The notes under the pieces: model-generated | Seen by the model: the letters and a program-made list of their open reading frames with translations, nothing else | What the model was told of the DNA's origin: nothing | The model's database searches: none | Source: a virus | Length of the DNA stretch: 64,000 bases | Strand: one strand, 5' to 3' | Virus record (IMG/VR): IMGVR_UViG_3300034092_003233 | Span: 1-64,000 of that record | Program-made: the position numbers and the translations under genes | Part shown: one piece after another, positions 39,378-59,370 of the stretch | How the letters are laid out: every line of letters begins with the position of its first letter | How positions within the stretch are numbered: the stretch's first letter is position 1

Positions 39378-40268
39378 TTATGCTGTTGGTGCTGCGTTTA
39401 GATACGGATGACCCACAGGAAGACTGCCTTGCAATTTCCACTTCCATGCAAGATATCCTTCAATGAGTTGTCTGGTCGTGGTGTTTGTAGATTGCACCAT
39501 TATGACCTCTGCAATTACTATGTTGGATGCTCTATTGACAGTATATTGTCTTGCTAATGAATAACCAACATTGGTGTTGTCTGGTGTTGCAATAGTGTTA
39601 GTGGTGCTTTCCAAGGTTCCGTTTCTCCACACTCCCCATCCCGTGGTATTGCTTTGAAATGCCATTATGTTACCAACATTATTCGCGTATACAGTTCCGC
39701 TACTCAAATCATAATTTGCTTGTGCAGCCCCTTGGTAATATGGATAGCAAGCACCTAAATTGTTACTGTTTTTTACATAGTGTAAGGCACCACGATCCGT
39801 TCCCTGTCCTGCTGAAGCCAAAACGCCTATTGATGGTCTATAGGCATCACTACCAGTTCCTGCTCCACTTCTTGACCATACCCAATACACTCCATGTGAT
39901 TGATTTTGCATTGCTGTGGTGGAAATATCCATAGCATCGTTGGAACCATCAAACAAAACTCCAGGCAATGAACCAGGAAAGGCGGTTGCAGAGTATGCTG
40001 GTTGATTTGCTGATGTTGCTTGCACAGCATTTACTCCACCACCTTTTCTATCAGCCCATGTGGAAACACCTGTAGAAATTGTGAGGGTTGAAGATTGTGC
40101 TGCATCCAACCAAAATACTGTTGAGATTTCTTGGGGAGTCCAAAGCGTGCTATTAAACTCTCCCAAATCTCTCTCCATGTAATGCTTCAGACTAGGAATA
40201 GTTCCTGCCGCTGTACGGCGTTGATCTGTGTTGCCACAGTATCCTGAATTGAGTCGCCATCTTCTCAT
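39378..40268 (-). CDS. Tail-fibre/adhesin with LamG-like domain, paralog B
   Basis: 296 residues from ATG 40268, ATGA-coupled to the collagen-like gene. It starts [20 protein letters not shown], so it lacks the FPTSP module of paralog A and begins at the shared [12 protein letters not shown] stretch. The LamG-like domain has [32 protein letters not shown] and the end [20 protein letters not shown]. It may be an exchangeable tip for the collagen-like fibre encoded directly upstream. Confidence 0.7.
40171..40230. repeat. Direct repeat, copy 2
   Basis: Partner of the repeat at 39116-39175, in the 5' part of adhesin paralog B. Recombination between the copies would delete or swap one adhesin cleanly. 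Confidence 0.85.
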
Positions 40269-42553
40269 GATAAGAACCACCCTCTCTTGAAGTCTACGAT
40301 GTATTGAACTGTACCTGTGAGTCCGTTGACTGATATTACATAGTCTCCAACAGGACCAGTCGCACCTTGAGGACCAGTTGCACCTTGAGAACCCGTTGCA
40401 CCAGTAGCACCTGTTGCACCTTGAGAACCCGTTGCACCTTGAGAACCCGTTGCACCAGTAGCACCTGTTGCACCTTGCGATCCTGTTGCACCTTGCGATC
40501 CTGTTGCACCTTGCGATCCTGTTGCACCTTGAGGACCAGTTGCACCTTGAGAACCCGTTGCACCTTGAGAACCCGTTGCACCTTGAGAACCCGTTGCACC
40601 TTGAGAACCCGTTGCACCAGTAGCACCTGTTGCACCTTGCGATCCTGTTGCACCTTGAGGACCAGTTGCACCTGTGTTACCTTGAGAACCAGTAGCACCA
40701 TTTGCACCAGCAACCCCTGCCGCACCAGTTGCTCCTTGAGGACCAAATGGTTCAACCCAATATGAAGACGAGCCATCTGTGATGTAAACAAACACATTTC
40801 CGCTGCTTGTGTTGAACCACATATCACCGTATGTGGCTCCTGCGGGTGCTGTGGTTGATGAGGTGAAACTTATTGCACCTGAGATACCTTGAGGACCCGT
40901 AACACCTGTTGCACCTGTATTACCTTGCGGACCAGTGGCACCAGTAGCACCTTGTTCACCTGTAGCACCTTGAGGACCTGTAGCACCTGTTGTACCTTGA
41001 GGACCTGTGGCTCCTGTAGCACCAGTAGCACCTGTGGTTCCAACAACAGTAGAAGAAATAGCAGAAATAAAATCAGTATAAGATATTTGTTTGGTTTCTT
41101 CGTCGGCCGCATCAGTTACAAGAATATTTGAAGTCGATTTAAAGGTGGAGGCTGGAGCAGTATAATCAAAATAGTTATTAAGGCTGGCAACCGTGGTAAC
41201 AAACATTTGATTTGCTTTTGCAGGGTTGCCAAGCACATTTGTAGTCTTATCTTGTAATAATAAAATATCACCTTTTCCAATATCTTTAGCACTTCTAGTA
41301 GGAAATGTTAAACCACCCCGTGAATAGTCAATACCAAATGAATGCGTATTTCCTGCAATCGCGTAAGAAATGCCCCGCAACCCTTGTAGATTTACTTCGC
41401 CTGTTGTTCCACTCAAAGAAACAACATAGGGGCCACTTATTCCGTCACCACCTCCGCCTCCACCTGTAATGTTAACTTCTACATTTTTTCCTTTTCGTGT
41501 TACTGTAACACCAGAACCAGTGAAATTAATGTCATTTACAGATTTAATAATCTGTGCTTTATTGAATTGTATTCCTACTGCACCACCACCAATAGAAGTT
41601 AAATCAAATGAACCACTCTTAAGAGATGATAATTTTTCTACTAGTTTTTCTATCTTTTTAGAATCAAACGAAAGGTGTTTAGTCTTTGCATCATAAACTA
41701 GTGGATGCGATACTTTTACAATACCAGTTTCACCGGGATCACCTTTGTCTCCCTTTTCGCCTTTCTTTCCTGCTGGTCCTTGTTTTCCAGTTTTTCCATC
41801 CTTCCCATCTTTTCCGGGTGATCCTTGTTTTCCTTCAGGACCAATGTTTCCGTCTTTGCCCGGATCTCCCTTGTCTCCCCTTTCTCCTCTTTCCCCATCT
41901 TTTCCGTTGCGACCGGCCGCGCCAGCGGGGCCAGGTTTGCCTTCAGGTCCTGGTTCACCGCGATCACCTTTTGGTCCAACAGGACCAGGCATTCCATCTT
42001 TACCATCTTTACCATTTGTTCCCGGTATTCCTTGATCTCCTTTGTCTCCTTTTGGACCAGGAATACCTAGTTCACCCCGTTCTCCGGGATCACCTTTCTC
42101 TCCCCTATCTCCCTTGTCTCCTTTGGGTCCTGCAAAACCAACGGGACCCATAGGTCCTCGTTCCCCTGCTGTTCCTCTTGGACCTGGAGTTCCTTCTTCT
42201 ATTATTTTTTGTTGTATTGTTTTATTAACAACTATTACTTTTGGTTCTTCTGGTTTTACTGTTTCTTCCACATATGGATCAAATAACTCTTGTATTTGCT
42301 TGGTAGAACCACGCAGAGTCATTTCTCCGTTGGGAGTGTTTATTGTAACTTCAGAAAGACCATAACCAAGTTTCCAAACATTATCAGAAGATGAATTATC
42401 AGAAATGCTTACAATAGTTCCTTCTGATAGACCTAACTCTTCTCGTACTAATATAAATTTATCACCGGGAGAATGATTACCAACAACAATACGAGAAGAA
42501 CCAATTTTTGGCTCCTCTTCGTTTGAATTGACATAATCAAAAAAATTCTTCAT
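40265..42553 (-). CDS. Collagen-like tail-fibre protein
   Basis: 762 residues, starting [16 protein letters not shown] globular N-terminal part (~1-115) is followed by a charged collagen-like block at ~120-278 ([19 protein letters not shown] type). Next come a short coiled coil ([16 protein letters not shown]) and a beta region. Neutral collagen-like blocks follow at ~500-560 and ~620-735, built of [12 protein letters not shown] and GATGAT units interrupted by a small domain ([20 protein letters not shown]). The end [20 protein letters not shown] recurs in the fibre at 36052. Gly-X-Y repeats form trimeric rods, so this is a long fibre shaft. Confidence 0.85.
40351..40690. repeat. 18-bp tandem repeat array encoding GATGSQ units
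   Basis: About eighteen 18-nt units of the type CACCTTGAGAACCCGTTG or CACCTTGCGATCCTGTTG (plus-strand reading), with some 9-nt half units giving GATGAT. Several neighbouring units are identical at DNA level, so slippage or unequal exchange could change fibre length. A second, shorter array lies at about 40880-41045. Confidence 0.85.
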
Positions 42554-43101: not shown

Positions 43102-44298
43102 TTATCTCTTTGCTCGTTCTTTTTTCTTGTGGAGTTTGAGTTTTTTCTTTTCCATCTTTTGTTCAACTTTTTTTTCATTTAGTTGAATTTTTGTCTCAAT
43201 AATGATTCTTTCATACTCGCTTAGATTTTTCTTAACTCTTTCAATTTCATTGGCAGGGAGAAGATTACGATCTAACAATGCTTTACATGCGTTATAACCG
43301 ATTTCAATCTTACCGGCATAAAACGCAGTGCTTCCAATTTCATCCAATATCCCGTATCGATACACATCATTGTCTATGAACAGAATATCGTCTTTTGGGT
43401 AAGGTATCTCTGCTGCCATTTTGGCAAAGACATATCCAAGAGCAGGCTTTCCATTAAGTCTGTAGATTCTTGCAATTTGATATAAAGGTTCAGCGCGATT
43501 TGGTCGTGCATTATAAGCATCTAGGAATGCTTGTTGAATTTCAACCCAGTTCTTATTTTGCAGTGCTCTGGTTATTCCTATTCGATATATTGAATAATAA
43601 ATCTCTTCTGGCCACCCACCCATCTCTACTCTCTTGACATATGCTTGTTCTGCCTTTTCCCATTGCTGAGAATCAAAATAACTTTGAGCAAGATAGAATT
43701 GATACCGAACATTTTCTGGCTCATCAATTAAAGCCTTTTCTAAGATTTCTGCATCTTTCTTATACTTTTCTACGGGAGTGATGTTTTGGTTTCTACCACC
43801 AACCGTTCTAGCCACAACTCTGTAATCACCAACCAATCTGTCAATTGTTGGTTGTCGTTGTTCTGTTAGTGCTGGATATTCGTGGAGAACACCATAATAT
43901 TTCCATCCACATCCACTCTTAAAGATCTGAGTTCTCCACCAAGAGAAATCCATTCTGCCCATGAGAACAGCATAGCCCTCATGTCCTACTAGTTTTTCTA
44001 CTGGTAGTTTTCCTTCAACATAATCATCGGCATCAATCATGAAGATATAATCTGCTTTACCATCAGCAAGTCTTAGTGCTTCCGTGCGATTTTCACCAAA
44101 GGAAACCCAAGGGCGTTCATGTAATTCGCCGGGAATTCCTTTTTCTGCAAAGTAGTTTTTAATCAGTTCTTGGGTTCCATCGGTTGAACCAGTATCAACT
44201 ATTACCCAATAATCAATTTGATCATAAAGACTGTCGAAACATTCTTTAATAATGTGCGATTCATTTTTAACGATCATCGATAGGCATAATTTATGCAT
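43102..44298 (-). CDS. Family 2 glycosyltransferase with TPR-like C-terminus
   Basis: 398 residues. GT-A domain: LCLSMIVKNESHIIKECFDS, VIVDTGSTDGTQELI and the metal motif DYIFMIDADDYVEG. After ~220 come TPR-like helical repeats (VRYQFYLAQSYFDSQQWEKA, then PNRAEPLYQIARIYRLNGKP), and the C-terminus is a Lys-rich coil. This architecture is common in phage and bacterial glycosyltransferases. It closes the glycan cassette, next to the fibre operon, so fibres are possible acceptors. Confidence 0.85.
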   Translation of the reverse strand: MHKLCLSMIVKNESHIIKECFDSLYDQIDYWVIVDTGSTDGTQELIKNYFAEKGIPGELHERPWVSFGENRTEALRLADGKADYIFMIDADDYVEGKLPVEKLVGHEGYAVLMGRMDFSWWRTQIFKSGCGWKYYGVLHEYPALTEQRQPTIDRLVGDYRVVARTVGGRNQNITPVEKYKKDAEILEKALIDEPENVRYQFYLAQSYFDSQQWEKAEQAYVKRVEMGGWPEEIYYSIYRIGITRALQNKNWVEIQQAFLDAYNARPNRAEPLYQIARIYRLNGKPALGYVFAKMAAEIPYPKDDILFIDNDVYRYGILDEIGSTAFYAGKIEIGYNACKALLDRNLLPANEIERVKKNLSEYERIIIETKIQLNEKKVEQKMEKKKLKLHKKKERAKR

Positions 44299-45073
44299 AA
44301 TTATTATTCTCCAGTAAACACTTATATGTATTTAAAATTCCTCTATGCAATCCAATAGTTTGAATAGGTAATTCTGAATCGCCACAATAAAAATCAAATT
44401 CATCTTTATTGTCAATGACTATAGGAACTTTATGTTCTCCAAGCACATTTATAAAATTTGCTATATTTTTTAATGAATATTTGTGACTGTATGAACAATT
44501 TATTTGTTTATCTAATTTATCATTTTCAATAAAATGTTGCACCAGTGTTATAAAATCTTTCATATAAAAAAAATCCATTATTTTATTTTGATGAATTACC
44601 ATCGATTCTTTTTTTAGATATCTAATTAAATTGGCTTTAATGAATCTTGTATTCAATTCATTTTCATCAAATAATCCAAATATTCTTAAATTGTAAAAGT
44701 TATCATATTTTTCTATTTGTTTTGCAATTTCTCTTTTACTGTTGGCATACGGTGTGTCTCCATGAAAAATTTCAGCGCCCGAACCAAAAGATATTAACTT
44801 GGAAAAGGACTTTTGGTTGGCGATCAAATTGTTGAACATCGCCATATTATTATCAAACACACAAGAATCATCTAGTTGTAGTCTACTGCCTCCACTAATG
44901 GCAGTATGAATCACAACATCGAATGTTTTACCGTCAAACCATTCACAGGTTTGTTGGTGATTTGTCAAATCAAAATCATTTCGTGTAATATAAGTAATTT
45001 GGTATTTTTGATTCAATGCATGATTTAAACTTTTTGCAATATAACCATTACCGCCAGTAATTAGTACATTCAT
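44291..45073 (-). CDS. Extended SDR sugar-nucleotide reductase/epimerase
   Basis: 260 residues. Rossmann start VLITGGNGYIAKS and catalytic Y-x3-K in DTPYANSKREIA; the substrate half is RmlD/Gal-epimerase-like. Placed directly after the ThDP enzyme with an ATGA overlap, as the reductase YerF follows YerE in yersiniose clusters. A role as final ketone reductase is inference; a dTDP-rhamnose-type reductase or epimerase is also possible. Confidence 0.75.
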   Translation of the reverse strand: MNVLITGGNGYIAKSLNHALNQKYQITYITRNDFDLTNHQQTCEWFDGKTFDVVIHTAISGGSRLQLDDSCVFDNNMAMFNNLIANQKSFSKLISFGSGAEIFHGDTPYANSKREIAKQIEKYDNFYNLRIFGLFDENELNTRFIKANLIRYLKKESMVIHQNKIMDFFYMKDFITLVQHFIENDKLDKQINCSYSHKYSLKNIANFINVLGEHKVPIVIDNKDEFDFYCGDSELPIQTIGLHRGILNTYKCLLENNNYA

Positions 45074-46836
45074 TTCATAATTTCTTTCATTTCACTTTCA
45101 TCAAGATAGGGGAACATATTTTCTAATGAATTTGATATTATCCTACCATCAGCATCTTTAGAGCTTTGCACCCGTGGTATTAGTAATTGATTTTCTGTCA
45201 TCATAATTTCACATAATACTGGTTCAGCTTTGTTTAAAATTAAACTAATATTATCTTCTAACTCTTTATTGTTTTTTAGTTTAAAAGTTTTAAACCCATA
45301 AGCTTCTGCTAATTTTGTAAAATTGGGAGAACTAATTCCACTTTTACTGTTAGAACCAATGTAATTACTATTGAATAGATTGTCTTGCATTAATGTTATT
45401 GCAAGATAACTGTTGTTGTTTAACACAAAAATTTTTAAAGGTATTTTATTATGGATTACTGTTTGTAATTCTTGAATGTTCATTTGCAAACCACCATCAC
45501 CAGAAATCAGGATGACTTCTCTTTGTGGATTTGCATAATACGCACCAATGGCTCCGGGTAAACCAAATCCCATAGAACAGCAAGCACTCGAAGTAAATAA
45601 TCGGTTTTTACCATTCATTTGTAGTGATTGCATGGTACAAGTGTAACTGGTTCCCATATCAGTTACTATTATATTATTGTCAGTCAAAACTGATGATAAT
45701 ATTTCCATAAAGTAAAATGAATTGATATTCTTTGTATTTGTTTTATATTCCGACTGAAATACTGGATATTTTTTTTTCCACGATTGAGTTTTATTTACCC
45801 AACAATTCCATTTTGGAATATTTTTATTTTTTAGTTCCAATAGGAGTCTAGGAAAAAATGATTTTAAATCTTCCACTATAGGATGATCTATTTTAATAGT
45901 TGGTTTTTTAATTTCATTTTCGTCTATGTCAACCATTATCTTGATTGAGTTTGGAGAAAATAAATCAGATTTATATCCTATATTTGGGATAGACATCCTA
46001 CTTCCTAGAATTAGTAATAAATCTGCTTTTTGAACTGCAAAATTTGCTGCTCGTTCTCCCAACAACCCAAAATTTCCAACAAACAATGGATCGTGCTGAC
46101 TCATTAAATCTTTGGATGTCCATGTAGATATTACAGGAATCTGTAATGTATTTTTTAATTCAACAAATAGTTCTTCAGTTTCTGATAAATGTATACCATT
46201 ACCAGTAACAATAACAGGAGATTTAGCTTTAAATATGAGATTTATTATTTGATCTAAATCATATCCAGTCGTGCTACTTTGTGGTTGAGCAAAAATTTTT
46301 TTTATTTCTATTCTACTATTTTGTATATCTAGAGGAATGTCTAACCATACAGGACCCTTTCTTCCTGACATAGCGATATTGTATGCTTTATCAAGATGAA
46401 ACTGTAAAGTATTTGGATCTGTTATCTGAACTGCATACTTAGTAATCGGTTTTACCATACTAATAATGTCACATTCTTGTACACCCAACTGTCTTAATTT
46501 TACATCATCTAAACTACAAAGAGATTGGTTTACCGGAACTTGACCAGAAATTACAATCATTGGAATAGAATCTTGATAAGCACCCAACACTCCAGTAATA
46601 GTATTTGACGAACCGGGACCATTTGTAACTAATACACATGCTGGTTTATTTGCCACTCTAGCATATCCTTCAGCAGCCATAGCACATGCTTGTTCGTGAT
46701 AATTGCAAATATAAGTAAATGGTTTTTCTCTGACAGAATTTAGTAAATGTGCGGCCGCTCCACCAGACACAGAAAAAATAGTATCAACATTCTTGGATAA
46801 TAGATAATCGAAGATATAATCAGAAATTTTAATCAT
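45070..46836 (-). CDS. ThDP-dependent enzyme, acetolactate-synthase-like (YerE-like candidate)
   Basis: 588 residues, the size of AHAS catalytic subunits and YerE. Features: the activating Glu48 in YHEQACAMAAEGYARV, a central domain with PVIVTGNGIH, and the ThDP-magnesium motif starting GDGGLQMNIQELQTVI near 446 and ending in VLNNNSY. A 'GPGSSNTITGVLGAYQDS' stretch is typical of the AHAS/POX family. In an amino acid pathway one would expect a regulatory subunit; here all neighbours are sugar enzymes. This suits transfer of a two-carbon unit from pyruvate to a keto-sugar, but that is inference. Confidence 0.85.
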   Translation of the reverse strand: MIKISDYIFDYLLSKNVDTIFSVSGGAAAHLLNSVREKPFTYICNYHEQACAMAAEGYARVANKPACVLVTNGPGSSNTITGVLGAYQDSIPMIVISGQVPVNQSLCSLDDVKLRQLGVQECDIISMVKPITKYAVQITDPNTLQFHLDKAYNIAMSGRKGPVWLDIPLDIQNSRIEIKKIFAQPQSSTTGYDLDQIINLIFKAKSPVIVTGNGIHLSETEELFVELKNTLQIPVISTWTSKDLMSQHDPLFVGNFGLLGERAANFAVQKADLLLILGSRMSIPNIGYKSDLFSPNSIKIMVDIDENEIKKPTIKIDHPIVEDLKSFFPRLLLELKNKNIPKWNCWVNKTQSWKKKYPVFQSEYKTNTKNINSFYFMEILSSVLTDNNIIVTDMGTSYTCTMQSLQMNGKNRLFTSSACCSMGFGLPGAIGAYYANPQREVILISGDGGLQMNIQELQTVIHNKIPLKIFVLNNNSYLAITLMQDNLFNSNYIGSNSKSGISSPNFTKLAEAYGFKTFKLKNNKELEDNISLILNKAEPVLCEIMMTENQLLIPRVQSSKDADGRIISNSLENMFPYLDESEMKEIMK

Positions 46837-47222
46837 AATTTATCAATAAAAGCTAAAGTATCATTCCAATTTTCAAAACGATACCCATTATCGTCAATGT
46901 ATAACATTGCTCTAGGTTTTTCAGAAGTAATACCACTAATACAATCGAACACATCGTATTTTTTTAACCACTCTTCCACTAGTTCAATTCCAGTTTTACC
47001 ATTTACTAATGGTCTGTCGGATTTTGCTTTTGCAGTAAAAATGATAATTTTGTGTCGTTTTGATAAAGTTTTTATTGCTTCCAAAGAACCAGCAATTGGT
47101 TCCCCATAACAAGTTCCATCATACCATCCCTTATCAAATGTGTGAATAACTCCATCAAAATCTATGGCTATGTTATTTTTATCATTTTCATGACCGGGAG
47201 GAAACTGTATATTATTTTTCAT
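46833..47222 (-). CDS. HAD-superfamily phosphatase
   Basis: 129 residues. HAD motif I is IAIDFDGVIHTF, motif II IIIFTAKA, and motif IV YIDDNGYRF near the end; the cap is minimal. Similar small HAD proteins occur in sugar-nucleotide and capsule clusters, sometimes fused to other enzymes. ATGA overlap with the ThDP gene. Substrate unknown, perhaps a sugar phosphate. Confidence 0.8.
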   Translation of the reverse strand: MKNNIQFPPGHENDKNNIAIDFDGVIHTFDKGWYDGTCYGEPIAGSLEAIKTLSKRHKIIIFTAKAKSDRPLVNGKTGIELVEEWLKKYDVFDCISGITSEKPRAMLYIDDNGYRFENWNDTLAFIDKL

Positions 47223-47895
47223 TTTTAGAAATTGTCAATAAAATTGTATTAGAAATCACGCCATCTAATTCTTTTGATACTTGTTTTACGATTTTACCAA
47301 ATCCAACATCACCGGGTATTGTGACACAATGTGATATTTTATCAATAGTTCTTACCATACCACCTTTAAGAAAGACGAGCAAATCATCATCTTGTTTGTT
47401 GTTGATTGTTTCAATATCATTTATAGTTTGTACTGTTATGGTGGAATTTGCAAATCGATAAGTATTACTTTTATTTAATTCTGGTTCTTTGATCCATAAA
47501 CATCTATCTGTTTTAGACTCTTCCGATGTGTGATCTTCATACGGTTTATGTGAACGGCCATATTGATCTTTTAATCTAACTAAATCTTGTTTATCTTTTG
47601 GTGTTTCGATTTCAAATACCCAAGCACCATTATCGGACAATGCTTTGGTTGAGTGAAACAAACCCCGTCTAATCATAACTTTATCTAATGAATTTATTAC
47701 GCGAGTGTCTGCTAAAAATGATAATTCTGCTTTTCCATCTAATAAAATTAATCCAGTAGTTTTTTTAGGATGACAATGCAAAGAAGTACTTTGATTAGGA
47801 GCAATATACAAAAACCACAGACCAACATCGTTGTTTTCATATACCAAATACTCATACCCCCAAGGTTTTTTAACAATATTGGTATCGTAACTCAT
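47212..47895 (-). CDS. Cupin-domain protein, mannose-6-phosphate isomerase-like
   Basis: 227 residues. KPWGYEYLVYENNDVGLWFL, then TSLHCHPKKTTGLILLDGKAEL and a second metal-side strand FHSTKALSD give a type II PMI-like or GDP-mannose-pyrophosphorylase C-terminal-like cupin. The C-terminal half is a second, weaker beta barrel. Could isomerise or epimerise a sugar; the exact substrate cannot be read. It overlaps the HAD gene by 11 nt. Confidence 0.75.
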   Translation of the reverse strand: MSYDTNIVKKPWGYEYLVYENNDVGLWFLYIAPNQSTSLHCHPKKTTGLILLDGKAELSFLADTRVINSLDKVMIRRGLFHSTKALSDNGAWVFEIETPKDKQDLVRLKDQYGRSHKPYEDHTSEESKTDRCLWIKEPELNKSNTYRFANSTITVQTINDIETINNKQDDDLLVFLKGGMVRTIDKISHCVTIPGDVGFGKIVKQVSKELDGVISNTILLTISKNEK

Positions 47896-48443
47896 TACTT
47901 CTTGTTTCTTTCATTATGAACCTGATGTCCAATTCGTAACCACTCTCCCATGAAATCATAGTGAGGACACGATACAATGTTACCATCAACTACTACAGAT
48001 TCTCTGCTGTAGGTTGCTCCTGCGTTTTCAATATCAATATCAATTGAATAGTAACCAGAAACAGTTCTACCTTTTAAAATCTTAGCAGAAATTAATAGCT
48101 GTGCGCCATTACACACGGAAAATATTGTTTTGTTTGCTGCATTCCACTCTTGTACAAATTTAAGAACTCCCTTTTCCTGTCTTAACTTCTCCAACGCTTT
48201 AACTCCACCGGGAACTACAAGAAGTTCATAATCATTCAAGTATTTTTGTCGTGTTGTTTCATTTTCAAACAATTTAGTTTCTATATCACAATTCATGTGT
48301 GTACCTAAACTACCCCAAATTTTACCAGTTTTATTAGCCATCAATGTAACATTAAATCCTGCTTCTTTTAAACTGTAAAATGGATAGATTAATTCATGAT
48401 CTTGAAACTTTTCCCAAGTAATAATTAGTGCATTTTTTACCAT
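47895..48443 (-). CDS. DJ-1/PfpI family protein
   Basis: 182 residues. ELLVVPGGVKALEKL and the nucleophile elbow IFSVCNGAQLLISA (Cys) are the DJ-1/PfpI hallmarks; NIVSCPHYDFMGEWL is at the C-terminal end. Members are glyoxalases, amidases or chaperones. It is odd in a glycan cassette. It shares 1 nt with the cupin gene and 7 nt with the dehydratase gene, so it is co-translated with them. Confidence 0.8.
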   Translation of the reverse strand: MVKNALIITWEKFQDHELIYPFYSLKEAGFNVTLMANKTGKIWGSLGTHMNCDIETKLFENETTRQKYLNDYELLVVPGGVKALEKLRQEKGVLKFVQEWNAANKTIFSVCNGAQLLISAKILKGRTVSGYYSIDIDIENAGATYSRESVVVDGNIVSCPHYDFMGEWLRIGHQVHNERNKK

Positions 48444-49387
48444 ATAAAAGTATCCTTATAATATTCAACAATCTTTACTAATTCTTCATCAAACTGCTTA
48501 ACGGGACTCCAACCTAGCGAACGAAGTTTTGTGTCATCAAGAGCATATCGTACATCTTGCCCCTGTCTATTGCAAGACAAATCAACATATTTGTCAAATT
48601 CAGATAAATCTATACCATTAGCAGTCAATATTTTCTGAACAGTTGTAAGATTACTCTGTTCGAATCCTCCGGCAATATTGTAAATCTCATTCTTAACACC
48701 GCTTTCGATTATTGTTATGATTACATTGGCTGTATCTTCTGCATGAAGCCAATTTCGAATAGGTGTACCATTATTATGCAATGGAATTTTTCTTCCTAAC
48801 TTTAGATATTTACATGCTTTTGGTATTAGTTTTTCAACATATTGTCCTATACCATAATTGTTTGTTGGACGAATAATAACATATGGTATCTTATAAGTTC
48901 TAGCCCAAGCCAATACTAACATATCTGCTGCTGCTTTTGAAGCAGAATATGGATTGGATGGTTTTAGTAAATCAGATTCAGTGTGCGCGCCTTCTACAAT
49001 ATCACCATACACTTCATCTGTGCTAAAGTGTAGTAGGGTAGGAATTTTAGTGTTCTCTTGCCTATAGTTTTTTATTAATTCCAAAATGTTATGAACACCG
49101 TTTATGTTACTGGTGATGAAATCGTCACTATTGGCTATGGAATTACCAACATGAGTTTCTGCTGCTGTATTAATAATATAATCGCAATCGTATAAAAACT
49201 TCAAGTCATTAATGTCACAATGCACAAAAGAGAAATTACTATACTGCTTAAATTCTTGCAATAGTTCTTTATTGGCTGCATATGTCATCTTATCTACACC
49301 TTTAACATACCATCCTTTTTTAAGGCATAAACGGGTTACATATGATCCAATAAAACCCAAACAACCAGTAATATACACGACTTTCAT
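48437..49387 (-). CDS. NDP-glucose 4,6-dehydratase (RmlB/RfbB-like)
   Basis: 316 residues. Rossmann TGCLGFIGSY, then AAETHVGNSIANSDDF, the dehydratase hallmark STDEVYG and the catalytic YSASKAAAD; NNYGIGQ and IYNIAGG follow. It makes the NDP-4-keto-6-deoxy sugar that is the substrate for RfbH-type 3-dehydratases. It resembles RmlB (dTDP) more than RfbG (CDP), so the nucleotide carrier is open. First committed step of the putative deoxysugar pathway. Confidence 0.88.
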   Translation of the reverse strand: MKVVYITGCLGFIGSYVTRLCLKKGWYVKGVDKMTYAANKELLQEFKQYSNFSFVHCDINDLKFLYDCDYIINTAAETHVGNSIANSDDFITSNINGVHNILELIKNYRQENTKIPTLLHFSTDEVYGDIVEGAHTESDLLKPSNPYSASKAAADMLVLAWARTYKIPYVIIRPTNNYGIGQYVEKLIPKACKYLKLGRKIPLHNNGTPIRNWLHAEDTANVIITIIESGVKNEIYNIAGGFEQSNLTTVQKILTANGIDLSEFDKYVDLSCNRQGQDVRYALDDTKLRSLGWSPVKQFDEELVKIVEYYKDTFIW

Positions 49388-50238
49388 TATTGACTTTCCT
49401 TTTTATAGAAGTTCACTAACATTTCAATTGTAGTATCAATATTAAGTTTTTGCTTGAAGCCATAAGATACCAACTTTGCAGTGTCAAGATACGAATGTCG
49501 TACCTGAACAATATCATGAAAAGTTGTTGGTTCGATGTGTATTATTTTTGATGTCGAACCAGAATACTCAATGGCTTTGTTTATCATATCCAAAAATTTG
49601 TATGGTTTACCACTTCCAATATTTATTATTTGATTTGGTGGTGATTTATCAATACACAATTTAATAGCAGAGCAAACATCCTCCACATGAATATAATCTC
49701 GCAAAACTTCTCCACCATAGTAAAGAGGAACATCTCTATTATTAACAATTTCTCTGATTAAAAATTGAAGAGCATTTTTCTTCTTGGAGATCTTCTTATC
49801 TCCTTCTCCTATAACATTGGCTAATCTCAGTATTCTGTACTTTATATTATGAGTTTGACAGAAAGAAATTAATAATTGCTCGGCACAATATTTTGTAATG
49901 GAATAGAATCCAGAGGGATTACATTTAGAATAATCTTCTCGGAATGGCATTTCATAGTTCTTACCGTAAACAAACCAAGAACTTATGAAATTAAAAGTAG
50001 TATCACTGTTTTTTGGCAGAGTTTCTAATACATTCATAAGAACTGTTAGATTGGTATCAATATCAATGTGAAGATCAGTATGCACATTGTAATTGTCTAC
50101 CGTACTTATAAAGTACAAAACATTATTTGTTTTTGTTTTATAATCATTTCTGTCTATTCGCACAACAGAATCTGAATATAGTTCACAAAATTTAGATCCT
50201 ATGAATCCCGTAGAACCAAAAACAGATATATCATTCAT
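49387..50238 (-). CDS. Extended SDR NAD-dependent epimerase/dehydratase
   Basis: 283 residues. ISVFGSTGFIGSKF, the Ser in FNFISSWFVYG, and the Y-x3-K in SGFYSITKYCAE; LRLANVIGEGD and INIGSGKPY are family landmarks. The enzyme may be an epimerase or a 4-reductase acting on the keto-sugar. It abuts the dehydratase and overlaps the glycosyltransferase upstream by 8 nt. Confidence 0.83.
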   Translation of the reverse strand: MNDISVFGSTGFIGSKFCELYSDSVVRIDRNDYKTKTNNVLYFISTVDNYNVHTDLHIDIDTNLTVLMNVLETLPKNSDTTFNFISSWFVYGKNYEMPFREDYSKCNPSGFYSITKYCAEQLLISFCQTHNIKYRILRLANVIGEGDKKISKKKNALQFLIREIVNNRDVPLYYGGEVLRDYIHVEDVCSAIKLCIDKSPPNQIINIGSGKPYKFLDMINKAIEYSGSTSKIIHIEPTTFHDIVQVRHSYLDTAKLVSYGFKQKLNIDTTIEMLVNFYKKESQ

Positions 50239-51007
50239 CTAATATAACCTTTTCAAATTTTGCTATATTGTGCTTATTGTTTTTAATAAACATTTCATAT
50301 GGATACTGCTGAATATCTGAAACTATTTTCTTAATTGGAAACGGACACATAAGAGTAGGATATCCGTCAATATCATTTTTTTCATACAACAATTCTATTA
50401 ATTTTCTATTGAAAAGAGGCTTATTATCTTCGTGTGTTTCTATTTTTTCATTTTTTAAATTATATGCAGCAATATTATAGATTCCACCGACCATCAATTT
50501 TGGTATAGAATAACCAATCTTAGTCATATGTCTCCAATGCATATCTGCATCCTCTTCACCAAATCCACAAAGTCGTTCATCAAAATAACCAATTTTATGC
50601 AAAACAGACTTGGTACACACAAAATGGGAAAACCCATGATTGATGGTAAAAAATTCTTGTTTAGTAGTGTTGATGTGATTTACAATTTCATTGTATATGT
50701 TAGGATTTGCCCATGCAACATCATCACATACGATAAAATTATATTCGGTTTTACTAAAAATAACCAAATTGTTCCAAAGTTTGCTTAGTCCTTTAAACTC
50801 TGGACAAAATATAGGATAAATGTTTTTATATTGTTTTGCCAAATCTAACATTTCAACTCTGTAACTATCTGGCATTTCTTCTTCATTATTACCATTTATA
50901 GCCAATAAAATATCAACAGTTTCTGGAACTGTTAATCGGATTCTTCGAATTAATTCTGATACTAATTCTTTTCTTTGTCTAAATGTAACTATTCCTATAC
51001 TGAACAT
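50231..51007 (-). CDS. Glycosyltransferase, family 2-like
   Basis: 258 residues. Start FSIGIVTFRQRKELVSELI, then LSKLWNNLVIFSKTEYNFIVC with a DD pair (CDDVAWANP) as metal motif, and GYFDERLCGFGEEDADMHWR as acceptor-side helix, typical of rhamnosyl- and galactosyl-type GT2 enzymes. No membrane helices, so cytoplasmic. Acceptor unknown. Confidence 0.8.
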   Translation of the reverse strand: MFSIGIVTFRQRKELVSELIRRIRLTVPETVDILLAINGNNEEEMPDSYRVEMLDLAKQYKNIYPIFCPEFKGLSKLWNNLVIFSKTEYNFIVCDDVAWANPNIYNEIVNHINTTKQEFFTINHGFSHFVCTKSVLHKIGYFDERLCGFGEEDADMHWRHMTKIGYSIPKLMVGGIYNIAAYNLKNEKIETHEDNKPLFNRKLIELLYEKNDIDGYPTLMCPFPIKKIVSDIQQYPYEMFIKNNKHNIAKFEKVILDE

Positions 51008-51017
51008 ATATCACTCC

Positions 51018-51710
51018 TCAAAGATATTTACTAAAATGATTATTTAAAATTTTAACTCTATTGTTATTAGACACACCAGTAAGATGTGCTAGAAAACATT
51101 TTTCATTCCAAGGAGCATAAAGATTTCGGCGATCAGTCCAACAAGTCGTATCCATGATTTGTGCTGGAACAGAATTTAGAAAATTATGTTCCAATATTTT
51201 TATTACACTATTTGGAGAAGAACCACGATGTATGGCATTCAATGCATCTTGTTCGGTTGGAAATCGTTTTGCAGAATTATAAAATACACTCAAAAATGCA
51301 TCTGTGTGCTGCGTCCGTTGTATGATAAAGTTTCCAGTACTAAATGACCACTTACCAATCCAATCATATGAAGCATAGAATGTATTATATTCATCCAATT
51401 GGAATGTTTCTATAGAATAAGTATCATCAGTTATAATAGAATCTGCATCGATCCACATAACTATATCATAATATTCCAACATTTCAAATGTACGAACTGC
51501 GCGCAAAAATCCAAGATCGACATCCTTGAACCCATATTTTTTATCGGTTCCAAAAGTTCGCAGAGTCATCAAATCGTAACCATGTTTCTTTGCGTAGCGT
51601 TGTTTAGATGGTAAAGTTAATTCAAAAACTTCACTCATAGTGTTATCTGTTTCTTCTGGATGCCGAATAATTTCCGATGAACCAGTTAATATCAATACTC
51701 GTTTATTCAT
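51018..51710 (-). CDS. GT34-like glycosyltransferase (galactosyl transferase GMA12/MNN10 type)
   Basis: 230 residues from ATG 51710 with AGGA seven nt upstream; the longer frame reaches back into the upstream gene. PSKQRYAKKHGYDLM, then MLEYYDIVMWIDADSIITD with the D-x-D, and FSTGNFIIQRTQ are typical of the GMA12/MNN10 fold. It would move a hexose from a nucleotide sugar. Acceptor unknown. Confidence 0.75.
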   Translation of the reverse strand: MNKRVLILTGSSEIIRHPEETDNTMSEVFELTLPSKQRYAKKHGYDLMTLRTFGTDKKYGFKDVDLGFLRAVRTFEMLEYYDIVMWIDADSIITDDTYSIETFQLDEYNTFYASYDWIGKWSFSTGNFIIQRTQHTDAFLSVFYNSAKRFPTEQDALNAIHRGSSPNSVIKILEHNFLNSVPAQIMDTTCWTDRRNLYAPWNEKCFLAHLTGVSNNNRVKILNNHFSKYL

Positions 51711-51711
51711 A

Positions 51712-53022
51712 TTATATTCCTGCAAAAAAGTTTGTAGTAATTTGTTCAATATAGTCTAACTGTTCATCAGTAATTACTGGACTAGTTCCCAAAAAGAAAG
51801 TATCAGTTGTAACTTTTCTTGCATTTGGAAAATTCTTGATTACATCATCCTGATTCATAATACCAGCATAAGCAGGTTGTAACATGACATTACCGGCAAA
51901 GTATGGTCTAGTTTGAATCTTATTATCTTCAAAGTAATTTACAATATCCTTACGCTTAAATGGCGCACCATCCTTGATGGTCAAAGCAAAGGCAAACCAA
52001 CTTGGATTTGCATGTTCTGTTGCTTTTGGAAGAACAAAGAACTCTTCATACTTAGCAAAGATATCACTTAGTCTCTTGTGATTATGATTTCTCTTTTGTG
52101 TGATTGTTGGTAACTTCTTTAATTGAGCAAGACCCATAGCAGCCTGTAATTCAATTGGCTTTAGATTAAATCCAATCTCATCATAGACATACTTGTGATC
52201 AAATACTTCATCAGGCAAAGAAGGAAGCCAATTAGAGAATCGTGTCTTACACATACCATTCTTTAACATATTGGCTTTCTTACCAACACAATAACAACCT
52301 CTTCCCCACTCACGGAAACTTCGAACTACGATCTCTTGCTGTTGTGTATTACAAGCAACGAATCCACCCTCACCCATAGTAATATGATGGGCTGGATAGA
52401 AAGAACAACTTGCAAAGTCACCAAAAGATCCTAGTGGTTTACCGTTATAAGTAGAATCTAATGCATCACAGCAATCCTCAAGGAATACTAAACCATACTG
52501 ATTGACAATATCCATGAGTCTATTCATGTTTGGTGGATTACCCAAGACATGAGCAAAAGTAATTATCTTGCAACCTTCTTTTGCTTTTTGCTCTACTTGA
52601 TCTAAATTAAGATTGAGAGTGTCGATATCAATATCAACAAACTCAGGAACAAATCCTACTTGGAAAATAGGATTGATTGTGGTGGGAAATCCAGCAATAG
52701 GAGTTATTACCTTTGTTCCCTTTTGGAAGTTTGTCAGTCTCTTGGATGTAAGAGCAGACATCATAAGCAGATTAGAACTGCTTCCGCTATTAGTCAGAAT
52801 ACCAAAATCCTTCCCAACATATTTTGGGAATTGATGTTCAAAACGAATACCGTTTTCTCCCAATACAAGCCATCCATTTAGCAAGGCTCGTATTGCTTCA
52901 ACATATTCTTCTGTACCAAAGTAAGGACCAGCATACTGAACAACATCTTGTCCAGCGATCCACTTCTTTGATTCGTTCTTTTTTGTTATGAATTCTTCTA
53001 CTGCTTTTAAAATTTCTTCCAT
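51712..53022 (-). CDS. rfbH: RfbH-like NDP-4-keto-6-deoxyhexose 3-dehydratase (E1)
   Basis: 436 residues from ATG 53022 (RfbH/E1 ~437). DegT/DnrJ aminotransferase fold, but the PLP-binding Lys position is His: SFYPAHHITMGEGG with His212-His213. This replacement is the hallmark of E1/ColD-type dehydratases, which use PMP. The Cys-rich loop WGRGCYCVGKK ... NGMCKTRF supplies iron-sulfur ligands as in E1. Together they point to C-3 deoxygenation giving 3,6-dideoxyhexoses; ColD lacks the cluster, so E1 is favoured. No E3 reductase gene is visible in the window. Confidence 0.88.
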   Translation of the reverse strand: MEEILKAVEEFITKKNESKKWIAGQDVVQYAGPYFGTEEYVEAIRALLNGWLVLGENGIRFEHQFPKYVGKDFGILTNSGSSSNLLMMSALTSKRLTNFQKGTKVITPIAGFPTTINPIFQVGFVPEFVDIDIDTLNLNLDQVEQKAKEGCKIITFAHVLGNPPNMNRLMDIVNQYGLVFLEDCCDALDSTYNGKPLGSFGDFASCSFYPAHHITMGEGGFVACNTQQQEIVVRSFREWGRGCYCVGKKANMLKNGMCKTRFSNWLPSLPDEVFDHKYVYDEIGFNLKPIELQAAMGLAQLKKLPTITQKRNHNHKRLSDIFAKYEEFFVLPKATEHANPSWFAFALTIKDGAPFKRKDIVNYFEDNKIQTRPYFAGNVMLQPAYAGIMNQDDVIKNFPNARKVTTDTFFLGTSPVITDEQLDYIEQITTNFFAGI

Positions 53023-53024
53023 AA

Positions 53025-53861
53025 TTAATGAATACCCATTCCCCAATCATTCAAGTTTGGAATGTTATATTTTTGAACATTTTCTTTTATAGATTTATAC
53101 TTAAAACTCTCTTCTACATTATGATTTTCATAAACATTATATGGAACTTTCAATGGAAAATCAAACAATTTAACATCCCAATTAAAATTATTTACAGAAT
53201 AATCGTATTCTTTTGCCTGTATAGTTTTAACTCCAAACTTAAGTTGAGCAACATAATCAGTGACTTTCCAATAGTATTGTTTAACTGCAACTGTTTTTTT
53301 GTCTAACCATTGTATGTGTGCAACAAATAACATTGGCTGGTTTATTTTAATGGCTTTTCCGGGATGTGGTAAATGTTCGGAATGTCGTTGTGCATCTTTG
53401 AATGCGGTTCTAGAAGAATAAGAACCAATTCTATCGGCTATATGATCTCTCCACTTTCCATCTACTCGTATCTTATTGTAATCTGTATACTGTATCCAAT
53501 CCATATAAATTAAAGTATCTTTATATGTTTCTAAAATTTGTTCTAATTGTTCTTTAGTCAGATTACCATCAAGATATTCATCTGTATCTAAGCAAATAAT
53601 TTTACCAGAGTGTTTAAATGCTTCATCATATAATAGTTGCCTATTATTAGATTCTATGGCACATTTATTTTCTATATGTGTATCTGTTCGTAAGACATTC
53701 AAAATATTGAATTTATCTTTATTTTCTAACAAATATTCATATGTGCCATCAGTTGAACTGTCATCCATGAAAATAAAAGCATCGGCATATTTTTTCCAAT
53801 GAGGAAGCATTTCCTTTAAGATAAACAATTCATTTTTCGTAAGTGTGATTTGTATTATCAT
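53025..53861 (-). CDS. Glycosyltransferase (GT2/GT92-like)
   Basis: 278 residues. NELFILKEMLPHWKKYADAF, FMDDSSTDGTYEYL and KIICLDTDEYLDG give the donor-binding and D-x-D-type motifs of the GT2_4/GT92 group, which acts on short branches. His/Trp-rich C-terminal half. It ends 2 nt before the RfbH start. Confidence 0.8.
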   Translation of the reverse strand: MIIQITLTKNELFILKEMLPHWKKYADAFIFMDDSSTDGTYEYLLENKDKFNILNVLRTDTHIENKCAIESNNRQLLYDEAFKHSGKIICLDTDEYLDGNLTKEQLEQILETYKDTLIYMDWIQYTDYNKIRVDGKWRDHIADRIGSYSSRTAFKDAQRHSEHLPHPGKAIKINQPMLFVAHIQWLDKKTVAVKQYYWKVTDYVAQLKFGVKTIQAKEYDYSVNNFNWDVKLFDFPLKVPYNVYENHNVEESFKYKSIKENVQKYNIPNLNDWGMGIH

Positions 53862-54562
53862 TTTTGTGTTATTATTGGAAATCCAGAAGACTTTCGATTC
53901 ATATACATCTGTTTGTCATAATTAGAACCTATTTGCATATTTCTTGCCATTAAACTATCTTGATTTTCAAACCACTTGTGAATAATTGGTCTTCTCTTTA
54001 TGTGCTTCAGAACTCCTAGTGATTCAAAAACTTCAGTCTGTTCGTTATCACACCATTCTGATTTGTAGTCTGGATGATACACATATCCAAATAAATTATA
54101 CAATGTCCTTCCAATAATAGGAAGAGTAATTAAAGTTTTATATCCTTCTGGACCTTTAGGATCAAGCCGAGGATCTGTGTCGTAATTTAAACTACCTTTT
54201 AAGTCGGGAAAAAAAGAAAACATATCATTGACAATGATATCATCCCAATTGGTTTCAACTGGTTCCATGTCATCTGCCGTAGAAATCAAAATATCCCAAG
54301 AACTATCGGGAATATCTCTATTTATGGCATGGATCTTTCCTTTACTTTCACCATAAAAATAAATAACAGTTACATTGTTTGTATTTTTAGATTCTAGGAA
54401 TTGACGAATATGTTCATTGTTCAATAGCACATCATCAGTATCCATGCTAATGATTACTGTTATTTTATGTTTACCAGAAGCCTTATTTAAATAAGAATTC
54501 AAATTTGACATAAATTTTTCAGGTCGTTGTCTTGTCGGGTATTTTAATAAAATGTGTTTCAT
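53858..54562 (-). CDS. Glycosyltransferase-like protein
   Basis: 234 residues from ATG 54562. KHILLKYPTRQRPEKF and ITVIISMDTDDVLLNN are GT-A like, and DILISTADDMEPVETNWDDI carries the acidic motif. The C-terminal half has an EWCDNEQTEVFE element seen in sugar transferases that scan the donor. ATGA overlap with the gene downstream. Confidence 0.7.
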   Translation of the reverse strand: MKHILLKYPTRQRPEKFMSNLNSYLNKASGKHKITVIISMDTDDVLLNNEHIRQFLESKNTNNVTVIYFYGESKGKIHAINRDIPDSSWDILISTADDMEPVETNWDDIIVNDMFSFFPDLKGSLNYDTDPRLDPKGPEGYKTLITLPIIGRTLYNLFGYVYHPDYKSEWCDNEQTEVFESLGVLKHIKRRPIIHKWFENQDSLMARNMQIGSNYDKQMYMNRKSSGFPIITQK

Positions 54563-54572
54563 AGTAAAAATC

Positions 54573-55241
54573 TCACAATACAAAAATCATATTTTCCCAT
54601 CTATTTTCTATTAATCTATAACCTAATTTTGTGAATTTATCAAATAATAGATGATGCATGTTATCATTCTCTACGCAGATTATTTTGCAGTTATAGTCTC
54701 TTGGATTAAACCAATCCTGAAGTGTCAATTTTGCAGAATATCCTTCTACATCTATATTGATAAAATCAAATGTAGGACCAAATTTATTAAGAAGTTCTTT
54801 CATTCCTATATGCCCAATATAAACCTTTCTTGGATTTACTGGATCACCTTCTGAGTTAAATTCTTTATTGTTTTCAATTCCTCTCTGTGTCCAACTCTGA
54901 ATAGTAGAAGAAACAGAACTCATAGGAGAATCATAAAATTCCAACATTCTTTGATCTGTTAATTCTTCTTCTAATACTACGGCTAGATTAACTAATTCTG
55001 CTCTCCTCGGTATCATCTTATACATATCACATAATTTGTAAAAACAATAAGAAGAAGGTTCTACAAATACTCCACTCCAATTATTAAATTGTAACATAAT
55101 TTGGCGAACATTACTAAATGTTTCTCCATCATACGCGCCAATATCTAACAATTTTCCAGAAGTCATATTATTATCTAAAATGTATTTTATAATTACATCT
55201 TGTTCATTATTTTGTGAATAATTTTTAATCATATAAGTCAT
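54573..55241 (-). CDS. FkbM-family methyltransferase
   Basis: 222 residues. SAM motif KLLDIGAYDGETFSN, acidic strand end VFVEPSS, then DFINIDVEGYSAKLTL, the FkbM hallmark 'D-ID-EG'. FkbM enzymes O-methylate sugars or polyketides; here a methylated sugar on the glycan is likely. A small GAAAT microrepeat lies just before its ATG, at the end of the upstream gene. Confidence 0.85.
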   Translation of the reverse strand: MTYMIKNYSQNNEQDVIIKYILDNNMTSGKLLDIGAYDGETFSNVRQIMLQFNNWSGVFVEPSSYCFYKLCDMYKMIPRRAELVNLAVVLEEELTDQRMLEFYDSPMSSVSSTIQSWTQRGIENNKEFNSEGDPVNPRKVYIGHIGMKELLNKFGPTFDFINIDVEGYSAKLTLQDWFNPRDYNCKIICVENDNMHHLLFDKFTKLGYRLIENRWENMIFVL

Positions 55242-55249
55242 CTTTCATT

Positions 55250-55963
55250 TCATTTCATTTCATGACTATCCACCAGATTACGATCTGGCAAATAACCATC
55301 AAATTCATAAATATCGTTTTTGGCATTTACATGTATCTGCTGTCCGACAAAATAAACACCACCATTATTAACTCCACGATGAGTTCCGGGTGGAAATGGT
55401 TTTTTAGAAAAAAATGGATCATGTTCAATATAAGTTAATTTATCATTTTTTATTTTATGAGTTAAATATGCAGACATAAAATTCTGGTCTTGTGTTTTTT
55501 CTAAAGATGGATTATATCGTTTAATTGCATTAAACATTTCACCTTTAAATTTATCACATTTAAGCCCAAACATTCCTGCTTGTATAAACCAAGCATGGTA
55601 TGGATGATCTCGCATTATATGAATATCTGCGTCAGATGCAATCCAATCATCTACTGCTAATTTTTCTCTAAAAGAAACTCTAGAGTCAGCATCTCTAAAA
55701 ATTGCTCGCTGCACATCTATAAAGTCAACAGCCAAAAATCTATTCATTGCTGATCTATTATCACCAATAGATTCTATCTGTTTCACATTAGTATTTTTTC
55801 TGCTTTTAAGTTCTTCTATTACTTCAGCGGGAACACAAGAATTACAGAAATAATAACATATCCATCCCGGATATACATCTAATGCCAAATCTGCATTATT
55901 TATTGCTCCTCTTGTATAGAGAGGATTGTTGCCCCATAAACTAAAAGAAATCACATTTTTCAT
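55250..55963 (-). CDS. Putative glycosyltransferase
   Basis: 237 residues. VISFSLWGNNPLYTRGAI is the start seen in a group of phage and bacterial sugar transferases; AIFRDADSRVSFRE carries a D-x-D, and IASDADIHIMRDHPYHA and GVNNGGVYFVGQ follow. No membrane segments. Family number uncertain. Cotranscribed with FkbM. Confidence 0.65.
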   Translation of the reverse strand: MKNVISFSLWGNNPLYTRGAINNADLALDVYPGWICYYFCNSCVPAEVIEELKSRKNTNVKQIESIGDNRSAMNRFLAVDFIDVQRAIFRDADSRVSFREKLAVDDWIASDADIHIMRDHPYHAWFIQAGMFGLKCDKFKGEMFNAIKRYNPSLEKTQDQNFMSAYLTHKIKNDKLTYIEHDPFFSKKPFPPGTHRGVNNGGVYFVGQQIHVNAKNDIYEFDGYLPDRNLVDSHEMK

Positions 55964-55965
55964 TT

Positions 55966-56568
55966 TTATTTTTTCATAAATTGTATCGATTCAGATGTTC
56001 TGTCATCATATCGATACAAGTGTAGTATTTTATTTATGTGTGTTTCTGATTTTACTTTAGGATACATCAACAGACACCAAGCAAAATCTTCACCATAAGA
56101 AGATGCTTCAAGTTTTGCTTGTTTTGCTATATCTGATTTCCAAAAACACATATGAAAAGGTGGTCGTTTTACATGAGTCATTCCCGGAACATATCTTTCG
56201 TTTGGATTGCTCATGTTAAAATTAACTATAAATTGATTGCCGTTTACTATGCAATGTTGATCAAAACTTATAACATCGGCTGGCTTTTCTTTTATATTAT
56301 TGATAATAGTTGACATGTAATCATCAGTAATATCATCGTCATCATCCATAAAAGCAATCCATTTGCCTCTAGCAGAGTCTAATAGTGATTGTCTTTTTTC
56401 ACCAATAGTCATACTTTTATTATCAATAAGACAAAGAATTTCAACCTCTGGATAGTTTTTTGTTTGCTCTAACATTTTATTGTATAGAGGTATTAGATAT
56501 TTTTCAATTCTAGATGGTATTGAAAGTATAAGTATACTAACCAAAACGCTGTCTTTATTAGTTGGCAT
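55966..56568 (-). CDS. Family 2 glycosyltransferase
   Basis: 200 residues, short. VSILILSIPSRIEKYLIPL, IGEKRQSLLDSARGKWIAFM and DDDDDITDDY as acidic metal motif. The C-terminal acceptor part has ASSYGEDFAWCLLMY. It overlaps the fucosyltransferase-like gene by 11 nt. Confidence 0.8.
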   Translation of the reverse strand: MPTNKDSVLVSILILSIPSRIEKYLIPLYNKMLEQTKNYPEVEILCLIDNKSMTIGEKRQSLLDSARGKWIAFMDDDDDITDDYMSTIINNIKEKPADVISFDQHCIVNGNQFIVNFNMSNPNERYVPGMTHVKRPPFHMCFWKSDIAKQAKLEASSYGEDFAWCLLMYPKVKSETHINKILHLYRYDDRTSESIQFMKK

Positions 56569-58265: not shown

Positions 58266-58267
58266 GA

Positions 58268-59008: not shown

Positions 59009-59370
59009 AAATGTTCTTTTTCATCAATAATCAGAGACTGTGTTTCTTTGTTTATCTTTTGCTTATACGAAAACCGTAAGTCATTGAGTTTAAATATTTT
59101 TCTACAACATTCAATAAATTTCTCATCAAATTTATTTAACTTTTCAAACTCTCTTACTTGATTTTCAAGATTCCACAACTCGTTATTGACTGAAAGCAAA
59201 TCCGTTATAAATTCATTTAAAGTTGAAAACTTTTTAACATGTTTTTGTAAAAGTTCTAATTCTTCAGAAACATTTTTTCTCTTTTCATTGTCTTTGATGT
59301 TTTTCATCTTGACAAGAAGAATAGTATACCGATCTAGCAATTCACCATTGGAAATAGAAATGCAATTCAT
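59005..59370 (-). CDS. DUF6165-like coiled-coil protein
   Basis: 121 residues. SISNGELLDRYTILLVKMKN and the following EELELLQKHV ... FITDLLSVNNELWNLENQVR match a family (DUF6165, by recall) of helical proteins found with glycosyltransferases in capsule clusters. All-helical, Lys/Glu-rich. Function unknown; perhaps a scaffold for the transferases. Confidence 0.65.
   Translation of the reverse strand: MNCISISNGELLDRYTILLVKMKNIKDNEKRKNVSEELELLQKHVKKFSTLNEFITDLLSVNNELWNLENQVREFEKLNKFDEKFIECCRKIFKLNDLRFSYKQKINKETQSLIIDEKEHL

Follow-up and report, generated by a model that had tools for sequence, protein, structure and literature searches.

The DNA analysed here (the window) comprises the first 64,000 nucleotides (64 kb) of the 75-kb viral record IMGVR_UViG_3300034092_003233, a linear metagenome contig that represents a genome fragment. 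A sugar cassette of ~17 kb (positions 43102–60026, minus strand) was located between the replication and tail-fibre genes, its genes abutting or overlapping in an operon-like manner. Four of these genes had been proposed, in an earlier reading made from the sequence alone (the sequence-only reading), to form a pathway to a branched sugar resembling yersiniose, namely those for a nucleoside diphosphate (NDP)-glucose 4,6-dehydratase, an RfbH/E1-type 3-dehydratase, a thiamine diphosphate (ThDP)-dependent enzyme, and a short-chain dehydrogenase/reductase (SDR). All four were found to be intact open reading frames (ORFs) on the minus strand, and their assignment to these families was supported.

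The source of the record is identified by its gene content as a T4-like phage. A T4-type gp23 major capsid protein is encoded at 74261–75040 of the record (382 bits) and shares ~68% identity with its counterparts in marine T4-like phages, while DNA polymerase, the gp44 clamp loader, the gp45 clamp, and RNase H are encoded in the window and gp46/47- and UvsW-like ORFs were noted by reading of the record. Because the record is a linear metagenome contig, the cassette could in principle be bacterial DNA misjoined to a phage contig, but this is extremely improbable, as other viral contigs show the same gene order and gp23 exceeded its cut-off in 12 of 45 viral records that carry the module, this one included. 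For all seven cassette genes tested against relatives, the nonsynonymous rate (dN) was far below the synonymous rate (dS), with values of 0.08 and 0.8, respectively, for the ThDP enzyme. All seven genes are under purifying selection, which shows that they are in use and not decaying.

The gene at 45070–46836 (minus strand) is predicted to encode a YerE-like ThDP carboligase. The protein contains all three thiamine pyrophosphate (TPP) domains, and its best solved relatives are JanthE (8rph, 388 bits), followed by 5ahk from P. protegens (259 bits), which we take to be the enzyme named PpYerE, and acetohydroxyacid synthases (AHAS; at most 250 bits). JanthE has been characterised as YerE-like and joins 2-oxo acids to ketones (PMC12188165, PMC12247030). 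General family models name the window protein an acetolactate synthase large subunit, and it might accordingly be that enzyme, or another enzyme of amino-acid metabolism, whose gene lies in a sugar cassette by chance. This alternative is very unlikely. The protein reaches none of the acetolactate synthase cut-offs (best score 391 against 538 bits), and its gene is nearly always accompanied by genes for a 3-dehydratase and a 4,6-dehydratase. A quick tree of 158 proteins split a YerE-like group that includes JanthE and 5ahk from AHAS (branch length 1.05, SH-aLRT support 100), and a careful tree of 58 rows placed AHAS on one side of a branch supported at 100/100 and all viral proteins on the other. 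In both trees, JanthE and 5ahk are found together with the viral and the RfbH-linked bacterial proteins, apart from AHAS, so the phylogeny suggested in the sequence-only reading favours a YerE-like enzyme, and the grouping with biosynthetic AHAS that would have refuted that reading did not appear. On the 58-row tree the viral proteins are split among several places, with at least eight changes between cell and virus labels, at least five of them forced by well-supported branches, which makes several exchanges between cells and viruses likely. Matches to the protein in phage collections were at most 34% identical, and many of them resemble bacterial DNA in phage records. Two loci (L041 and L136) contain two YerE-like ThDP genes each.

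Individual residues were inspected as well. The catalytic Glu48 is present in all rows, and the GDG…NN ThDP/Mg motif is present in the window protein, where JanthE has CDG. The window protein carries the JanthE pocket residues V119, P284, Y288, and R555, of which the first three match JanthE and not AHAS, and L259 replaces Tyr268. At JanthE positions V121, Y268, P293, and K567, every AHAS row has F/H/R/M, unlike the window protein. Of the two JanthE residues that contact flavin adenine dinucleotide, Y268 and P293, the proline is kept and the tyrosine is leucine, both positions being variable across the family. JanthE, ErwE, and MMAR_2332 belong to the same ThDP family as the phage enzyme and share most pocket residues with it.

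Viral relatives of the ThDP gene were taken from among the matches listed in searches of viral contigs, and the 86 loci with enough flanking sequence were counted. RfbH was present in 71 of them, a cysteine-free His-type dehydratase in 9 (80 with a His-type enzyme in total), an RmlB-like dehydratase in 72, an SDR in 81, and all functions in 69, counts that are descriptive because the loci are related by descent and not independent. Divergent viral contigs retain the four genes as one unit, and in bacteria too the ThDP relatives adjoin RfbH.

The 3-dehydratase gene occupies 51712–53022 (minus strand) when its ATG start is used, and an upstream TTG would extend the ORF to 53046. As described in the sequence-only reading, it belongs to the RfbH/E1 type of pyridoxal phosphate (PLP)/pyridoxamine phosphate (PMP) enzymes: it passes the NCBIfam equivalog cut-off (NF011936, 466 versus 423 bits), matches the solved E1 structure 3bcx over its length (360 bits), and contains SFYPAHHITMGEGG, in which the catalytic His replaces the PLP Lys, together with EDCCD, GRGCYC, and a later Cys, which include the four [2Fe-2S] cysteines. 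The His column of the alignment was marked by the E1 mutant 3bb8, which carries Lys there. In the nine loci with the cysteine-free enzyme, it takes the place of RfbH, and the two were found together in none of the 86. Its His aligns with the E1 catalytic position, and its closest solved relatives are E1 (200 bits) and then ColD (129 bits); the label ColD-like was therefore dropped in favour of cysteine-free His-type E1 relative. At least seven swaps between RfbH and this enzyme are required on the ThDP tree (70 rows). Since both kinds of dehydratase retain the E1 His, deoxygenation seems to be the feature under selection, and its maintenance by either enzyme suggests that a 3-deoxy-4-keto sugar is the true acceptor. 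Cysteine-free His-type 3-dehydratases were recorded in L010, L049–L052, L054, L075, L078, L211, L212, and L224, with the sequence FYASHVITAGG where read.

The 4,6-dehydratase (48437–49387, minus strand) scored 301 bits against the dTDP-type model TIGR01181 (cut-off 365) and 73 bits against the CDP-type model TIGR02622 (cut-off 278), dTDP and CDP denoting deoxythymidine and cytidine diphosphate, and its best solved structures were dTDP-glucose dehydratases only. On these matches it is classed as RmlB-like and, being under the TIGR01181 cut-off, was not filed as RmlB. RmlB-like enzymes were found in 40 of the 45 viral records, and a CDP-type dehydratase exceeded its cut-off in one (L021), which also has a nucleoside triphosphate (NTP) transferase. 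Among genomes that contain the bacterial ThDP relatives, 26 of 30 encode a CDP-glucose dehydratase over the cut-off versus 1 of 14 control genomes; adjacency to the ThDP gene was compared in a few of the 26, and in those the two are adjacent.

Directly after the ThDP gene lies that of the SDR (SDR44; 44291–45073, minus strand), as the sequence-only reading had it. It matches Pfam Epimerase (58 bits), its best profile matches are to RmlD, its structural model (pLDDT 95.6) resembles GDP-fucose synthase/reductase most closely, and the Ser-Tyr-x3-Lys triad is conserved. From its position, reductase-type fold, and triad, SDR44 is predicted to play a YerF-like role. The apparent lack of an E3 reductase and a nucleotidyltransferase was confirmed over the whole 75-kb record, in which no NTP transferase, E3-type reductase, or ferredoxin was found, although the record is a fragment and these may lie elsewhere in the genome. 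Across the 45 viral records, ferredoxin was found in one, an E3-type reductase in none, and an NTP transferase in four (L021 and three others), and the idea of a phage-borne electron-supply or activation step was dropped. The host, or genome sequence beyond this record, would have to supply the nucleotidyltransferase and the electron donor of RfbH.

Beyond the four genes of the sequence-only reading, clustering of the ThDP-gene neighbours in viral loci without preconception revealed an exchangeable slot no more than 2.6 kb away from that gene. It is occupied by PanB (TIGR00222, 273 bits, over the cut-off of 208), a NeuB-like, HpaI-like, or DmpG-like enzyme, or, as in the window, a trio of PfpI, cupin, and HAD genes. 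Across 128 loci, PanB occurred in 39, NeuB in 28, cupin in 21, HpaI in 10, DmpG in 9, and none of these in 21, with no locus containing more than one type over that distance. In 79 less redundant rows, no slot pairs were observed, whereas 2000 random shuffles gave 20.6 on average and never fewer than 10, and within 9 kb 4 were observed against 23.0; because physical space and common descent both contribute to this exclusivity, no formal probability was attached to it. The slot type changes at least nine times on the viral part of the ThDP tree. An apparent link between the slot type and pocket residue V121 was confounded by clade and was not used. In bacterial relatives the corresponding position holds NeuB, DmpG, or HpaI, and PanB was found in the slot of viral loci only. 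Enzymes of the PanB, HpaI, DmpG, and NeuB families generate 2-oxo acids, the donor class of YerE-like enzymes. ErwE and MMAR_2332 favour long hydroxylated 2-oxo acids (PMC12247030), the kind of product expected of the slot enzymes in related phages. Together with the bacterial counterparts, these activities and preferences are the grounds on which the slot is proposed to provide the donor, and the slot gene probably decides which fragment is added. We regard it as an even proposition that the phages encode a modular branched-sugar factory, with a fixed core of 4,6-dehydratase, His-type 3-dehydratase, YerE-like ligase, and reductase and one exchangeable 2-oxo-acid cartridge (PanB, NeuB, HpaI, DmpG, or PfpI, cupin, and HAD).

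In the window, the slot contains a DJ-1/PfpI family protein (47895–48443; PF01965, 119 bits), a cupin protein, cupin47 (47212–47895; model pLDDT 91), and a small HAD-like phosphatase, HAD46 (46833–47222), all on the minus strand. HAD46 was recognised as HAD by reading, falls in PHROG 1238 without a Pfam match, and has homologues that also adjoin HpaI- and DmpG-type slots. A fold search with cupin47 returned general cupin folds only (oxalate decarboxylase, AerE/BacB, and phosphomannose isomerase). Homologues of the cupin are fused elsewhere to the N terminus of the ThDP enzyme: in an archaeal locus (L104:9257–11809; 850-residue frame, cupin 41% identical over 158 residues), in a viral contig (L187:9449–11806; 45% over 124 residues), and, by reading, in a second viral contig (L193:9371–11761). 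The PfpI protein adjoining the L104 fusion is 49% identical to that of the window, and this archaeon is the only case found outside viral loci in which PfpI and cupin lie beside a ThDP gene. No core-type RmlB-like or RfbH genes lie near the three fusions, which indicates that PfpI and cupin accompany the ThDP enzyme and not the acceptor-sugar genes. The L187 and L193 fusions adjoin genes for an SIS isomerase and a PfkB kinase or cytidylyltransferase, which suggests a heptose-type acceptor. In three Burkholderiales-order loci (L238, L239, and L240), the same cupin adjoins E1_dh/transketolase-type two-subunit ThDP enzymes of another superfamily and a DegT protein, the subunits having been checked with Pfam in L238 and one subunit in L240.

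These fusions bear on the alternative that the cassette serves two separate sugars, with RmlB and RfbH making a plain 3,6-dideoxyhexose and the PfpI, cupin, HAD, and ThDP proteins building a second, branched sugar on some other keto-sugar. The cupin–ThDP unit can evidently occur apart from RmlB and RfbH, in two viral cases beside heptose-pathway-like genes, and cultured Synechococcus phages have RfbH and RmlB without a ThDP gene in the stretches read. The 3-dehydratase nevertheless accompanies the ThDP gene in 80 of the 86 viral loci, and the bacterial ThDP relatives adjoin RfbH too, so we judge a division into two sugars to be quite unlikely.

The yersiniose A pathway of Yersinia pseudotuberculosis (E1/E3, YerE, and YerF) has in common with the phage cassette 4,6-dehydration, E1-type 3-deoxygenation, two-carbon branching at C4 by a ThDP enzyme, and SDR reduction, the roles of its enzymes being drawn partly from the literature (PMC12247030) and partly from general background. 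The enzyme classes and their logical order are those expected if the phage carried the exact Yersinia pathway, CDP-linked and with pyruvate as donor, yersiniose A as product, and an unrelated trio in the slot; pyruvate is moreover accepted by JanthE (PMC12188165). Such an identity is unlikely, however. The phage has a dTDP-type dehydratase in place of the CDP type, which is over its cut-off in only 1 of the 45 viral records, and the pathway is therefore no copy of that of Yersinia; it also has the additional PfpI, cupin, and HAD genes, and the E3 and cytidylyltransferase genes are absent from the record. Slot exclusivity and the cupin–ThDP fusions point to a special donor. The term yersiniose-like of the sequence-only reading hence describes the class of sugar rather than an established product. 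Pyruvate is the two-carbon source named there for YerE, but the donor in the phage may differ, since related slots carry enzymes that make 2-oxo acids.

It is highly probable that these phage genes specify a nucleotide-sugar pathway whose product is a C4-branched 3,6-dideoxyhexose. From the gene identities, family placement, motifs, conserved linkage, and slot exclusivity described above, we infer its chemical steps, nucleotide, donor, and target. A host NDP-glucose, probably dTDP-glucose, would be converted by the RmlB-like dehydratase to a 4-keto-6-deoxy sugar, from which RfbH would strip the C3 hydroxyl by means of PMP and its [2Fe-2S] centre with electrons from a host ferredoxin or reductase. 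The YerE-like enzyme would then decarboxylate a 2-oxo acid and join the resulting acyl anion to the C4 ketone, giving a tertiary alcohol, and the SDR would reduce the ketone on the new branch. In related phages, enzymes that form 2-oxo acids stand in the place of the PfpI, cupin, and HAD trio, so the trio probably synthesises or prepares the donor, and this donor may be a compound other than pyruvate. Finally, phage glycosyltransferases would transfer the sugar to its acceptor, most probably a phage glycan, for instance on tail fibres, and otherwise host surface polysaccharide.

Several observations weigh against this pathway. The RmlB-like proteins of all viral records stay below the dTDP-dehydratase cut-off of 365 (mostly 288–311 bits, once 269), which makes the nucleotide unsure, and the activation and electron-supply functions are missing from the record. 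The tyrosine of JanthE at position 268 is leucine in the window enzyme, and the linkage counts come from loci that share descent. We know of no 2-oxo-acid-forming activity for a PfpI, cupin, and HAD trio. Two bacteria (L241:5252–6584 and L242:7377–9949) pair cupin and PfpI with no ThDP gene in the stretch read. L242 also has a HAD gene, which was confirmed, and glyoxalase-family genes, a possible small-molecule pathway.

The surroundings of the core were considered with respect to the target of the sugar. A GT2 glycosyltransferase gene (43102–44298, minus strand; PF00535) overlaps the SDR gene and recurs downstream of SDR44 in related loci, making its product a candidate transferase for the branched sugar. 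The cassette further contains, all on the minus strand, a second SDR similar to NAD epimerases/dehydratases (49387–50238; PF01370, 108 bits), which is present in part of the related loci only, two glycosyltransferase-like genes with weak family matches (50231–51007 and 51018–51749), and a remainder (53025–60026) of GT2, GT10-type, FkbM methyltransferase, and unassigned genes. Directly downstream of the cassette lies a collagen-repeat tail fibre protein gene (40265–42553, minus strand; PF01391 and PHROG tail-fibre families), whose product is a possible glycan acceptor. With tail-fibre genes next to it and many glycosyltransferases of its own, the cassette is more likely to serve glycosylation of the virion. 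The sugar might instead be added to the lipopolysaccharide of the infected host, for instance as a barrier to rival phages, as bacterial YerE-like products are O-antigen sugars (PMC12247030); that the cassette runs into tail-fibre genes and has its own glycosyltransferases argues indirectly against this, and we consider it the less probable target, at roughly one chance in three. Elsewhere in the window, a 1107-residue ORF (8895–12218) matched no PHROG family apart from an HNH-like hit at its C terminus.

Bacterial polysaccharide loci (L104–L161) share RfbH, the YerE-like gene, and the NeuB, HpaI, and DmpG slot families with the viral modules, and contain a CDP-type dehydratase where the phage has an RmlB-like one. 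YerE-like branched-chain sugars are known from bacterial surface polysaccharides, and viral relatives of the enzymes have only been speculated on in a review of the class (PMC12247030). Among cultured phages, the T4-like Synechococcus phages S-H68, S-B05, RN05-S, and RB11-B resemble this phage in having RfbH within a cassette rich in glycosyltransferases; genes of RmlB type and for an SDR were confirmed in S-H68 and RN05-S (L101 and L102), both of which also carry a cytidylyltransferase gene. They differ in that no ThDP gene occurs in the stretches read, and their RfbH is ~43% identical. The sequence-only reading knew of no described phage with such a pathway, which agrees with these cultured phages, but many uncultured viral contigs contain the full module. 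No paper on phage yersiniose or branched sugars was found in the literature searched.

A module this widespread, with an exchangeable slot for making the donor, would show that phages synthesise rare sugars of their own, beyond rearranging those of the host. If the cartridges are exchanged as proposed, a swap would alter the branch and hence the phage glycan, and the trio of the window would constitute an undescribed donor pathway. Some viral ilvB- and panB-like genes, annotated as acetolactate synthase or pantothenate genes, would then have been partly misread as belonging to amino-acid or vitamin metabolism, and biocatalysis of tertiary alcohols would gain a ready supply of ThDP enzymes together with their candidate donor genes.

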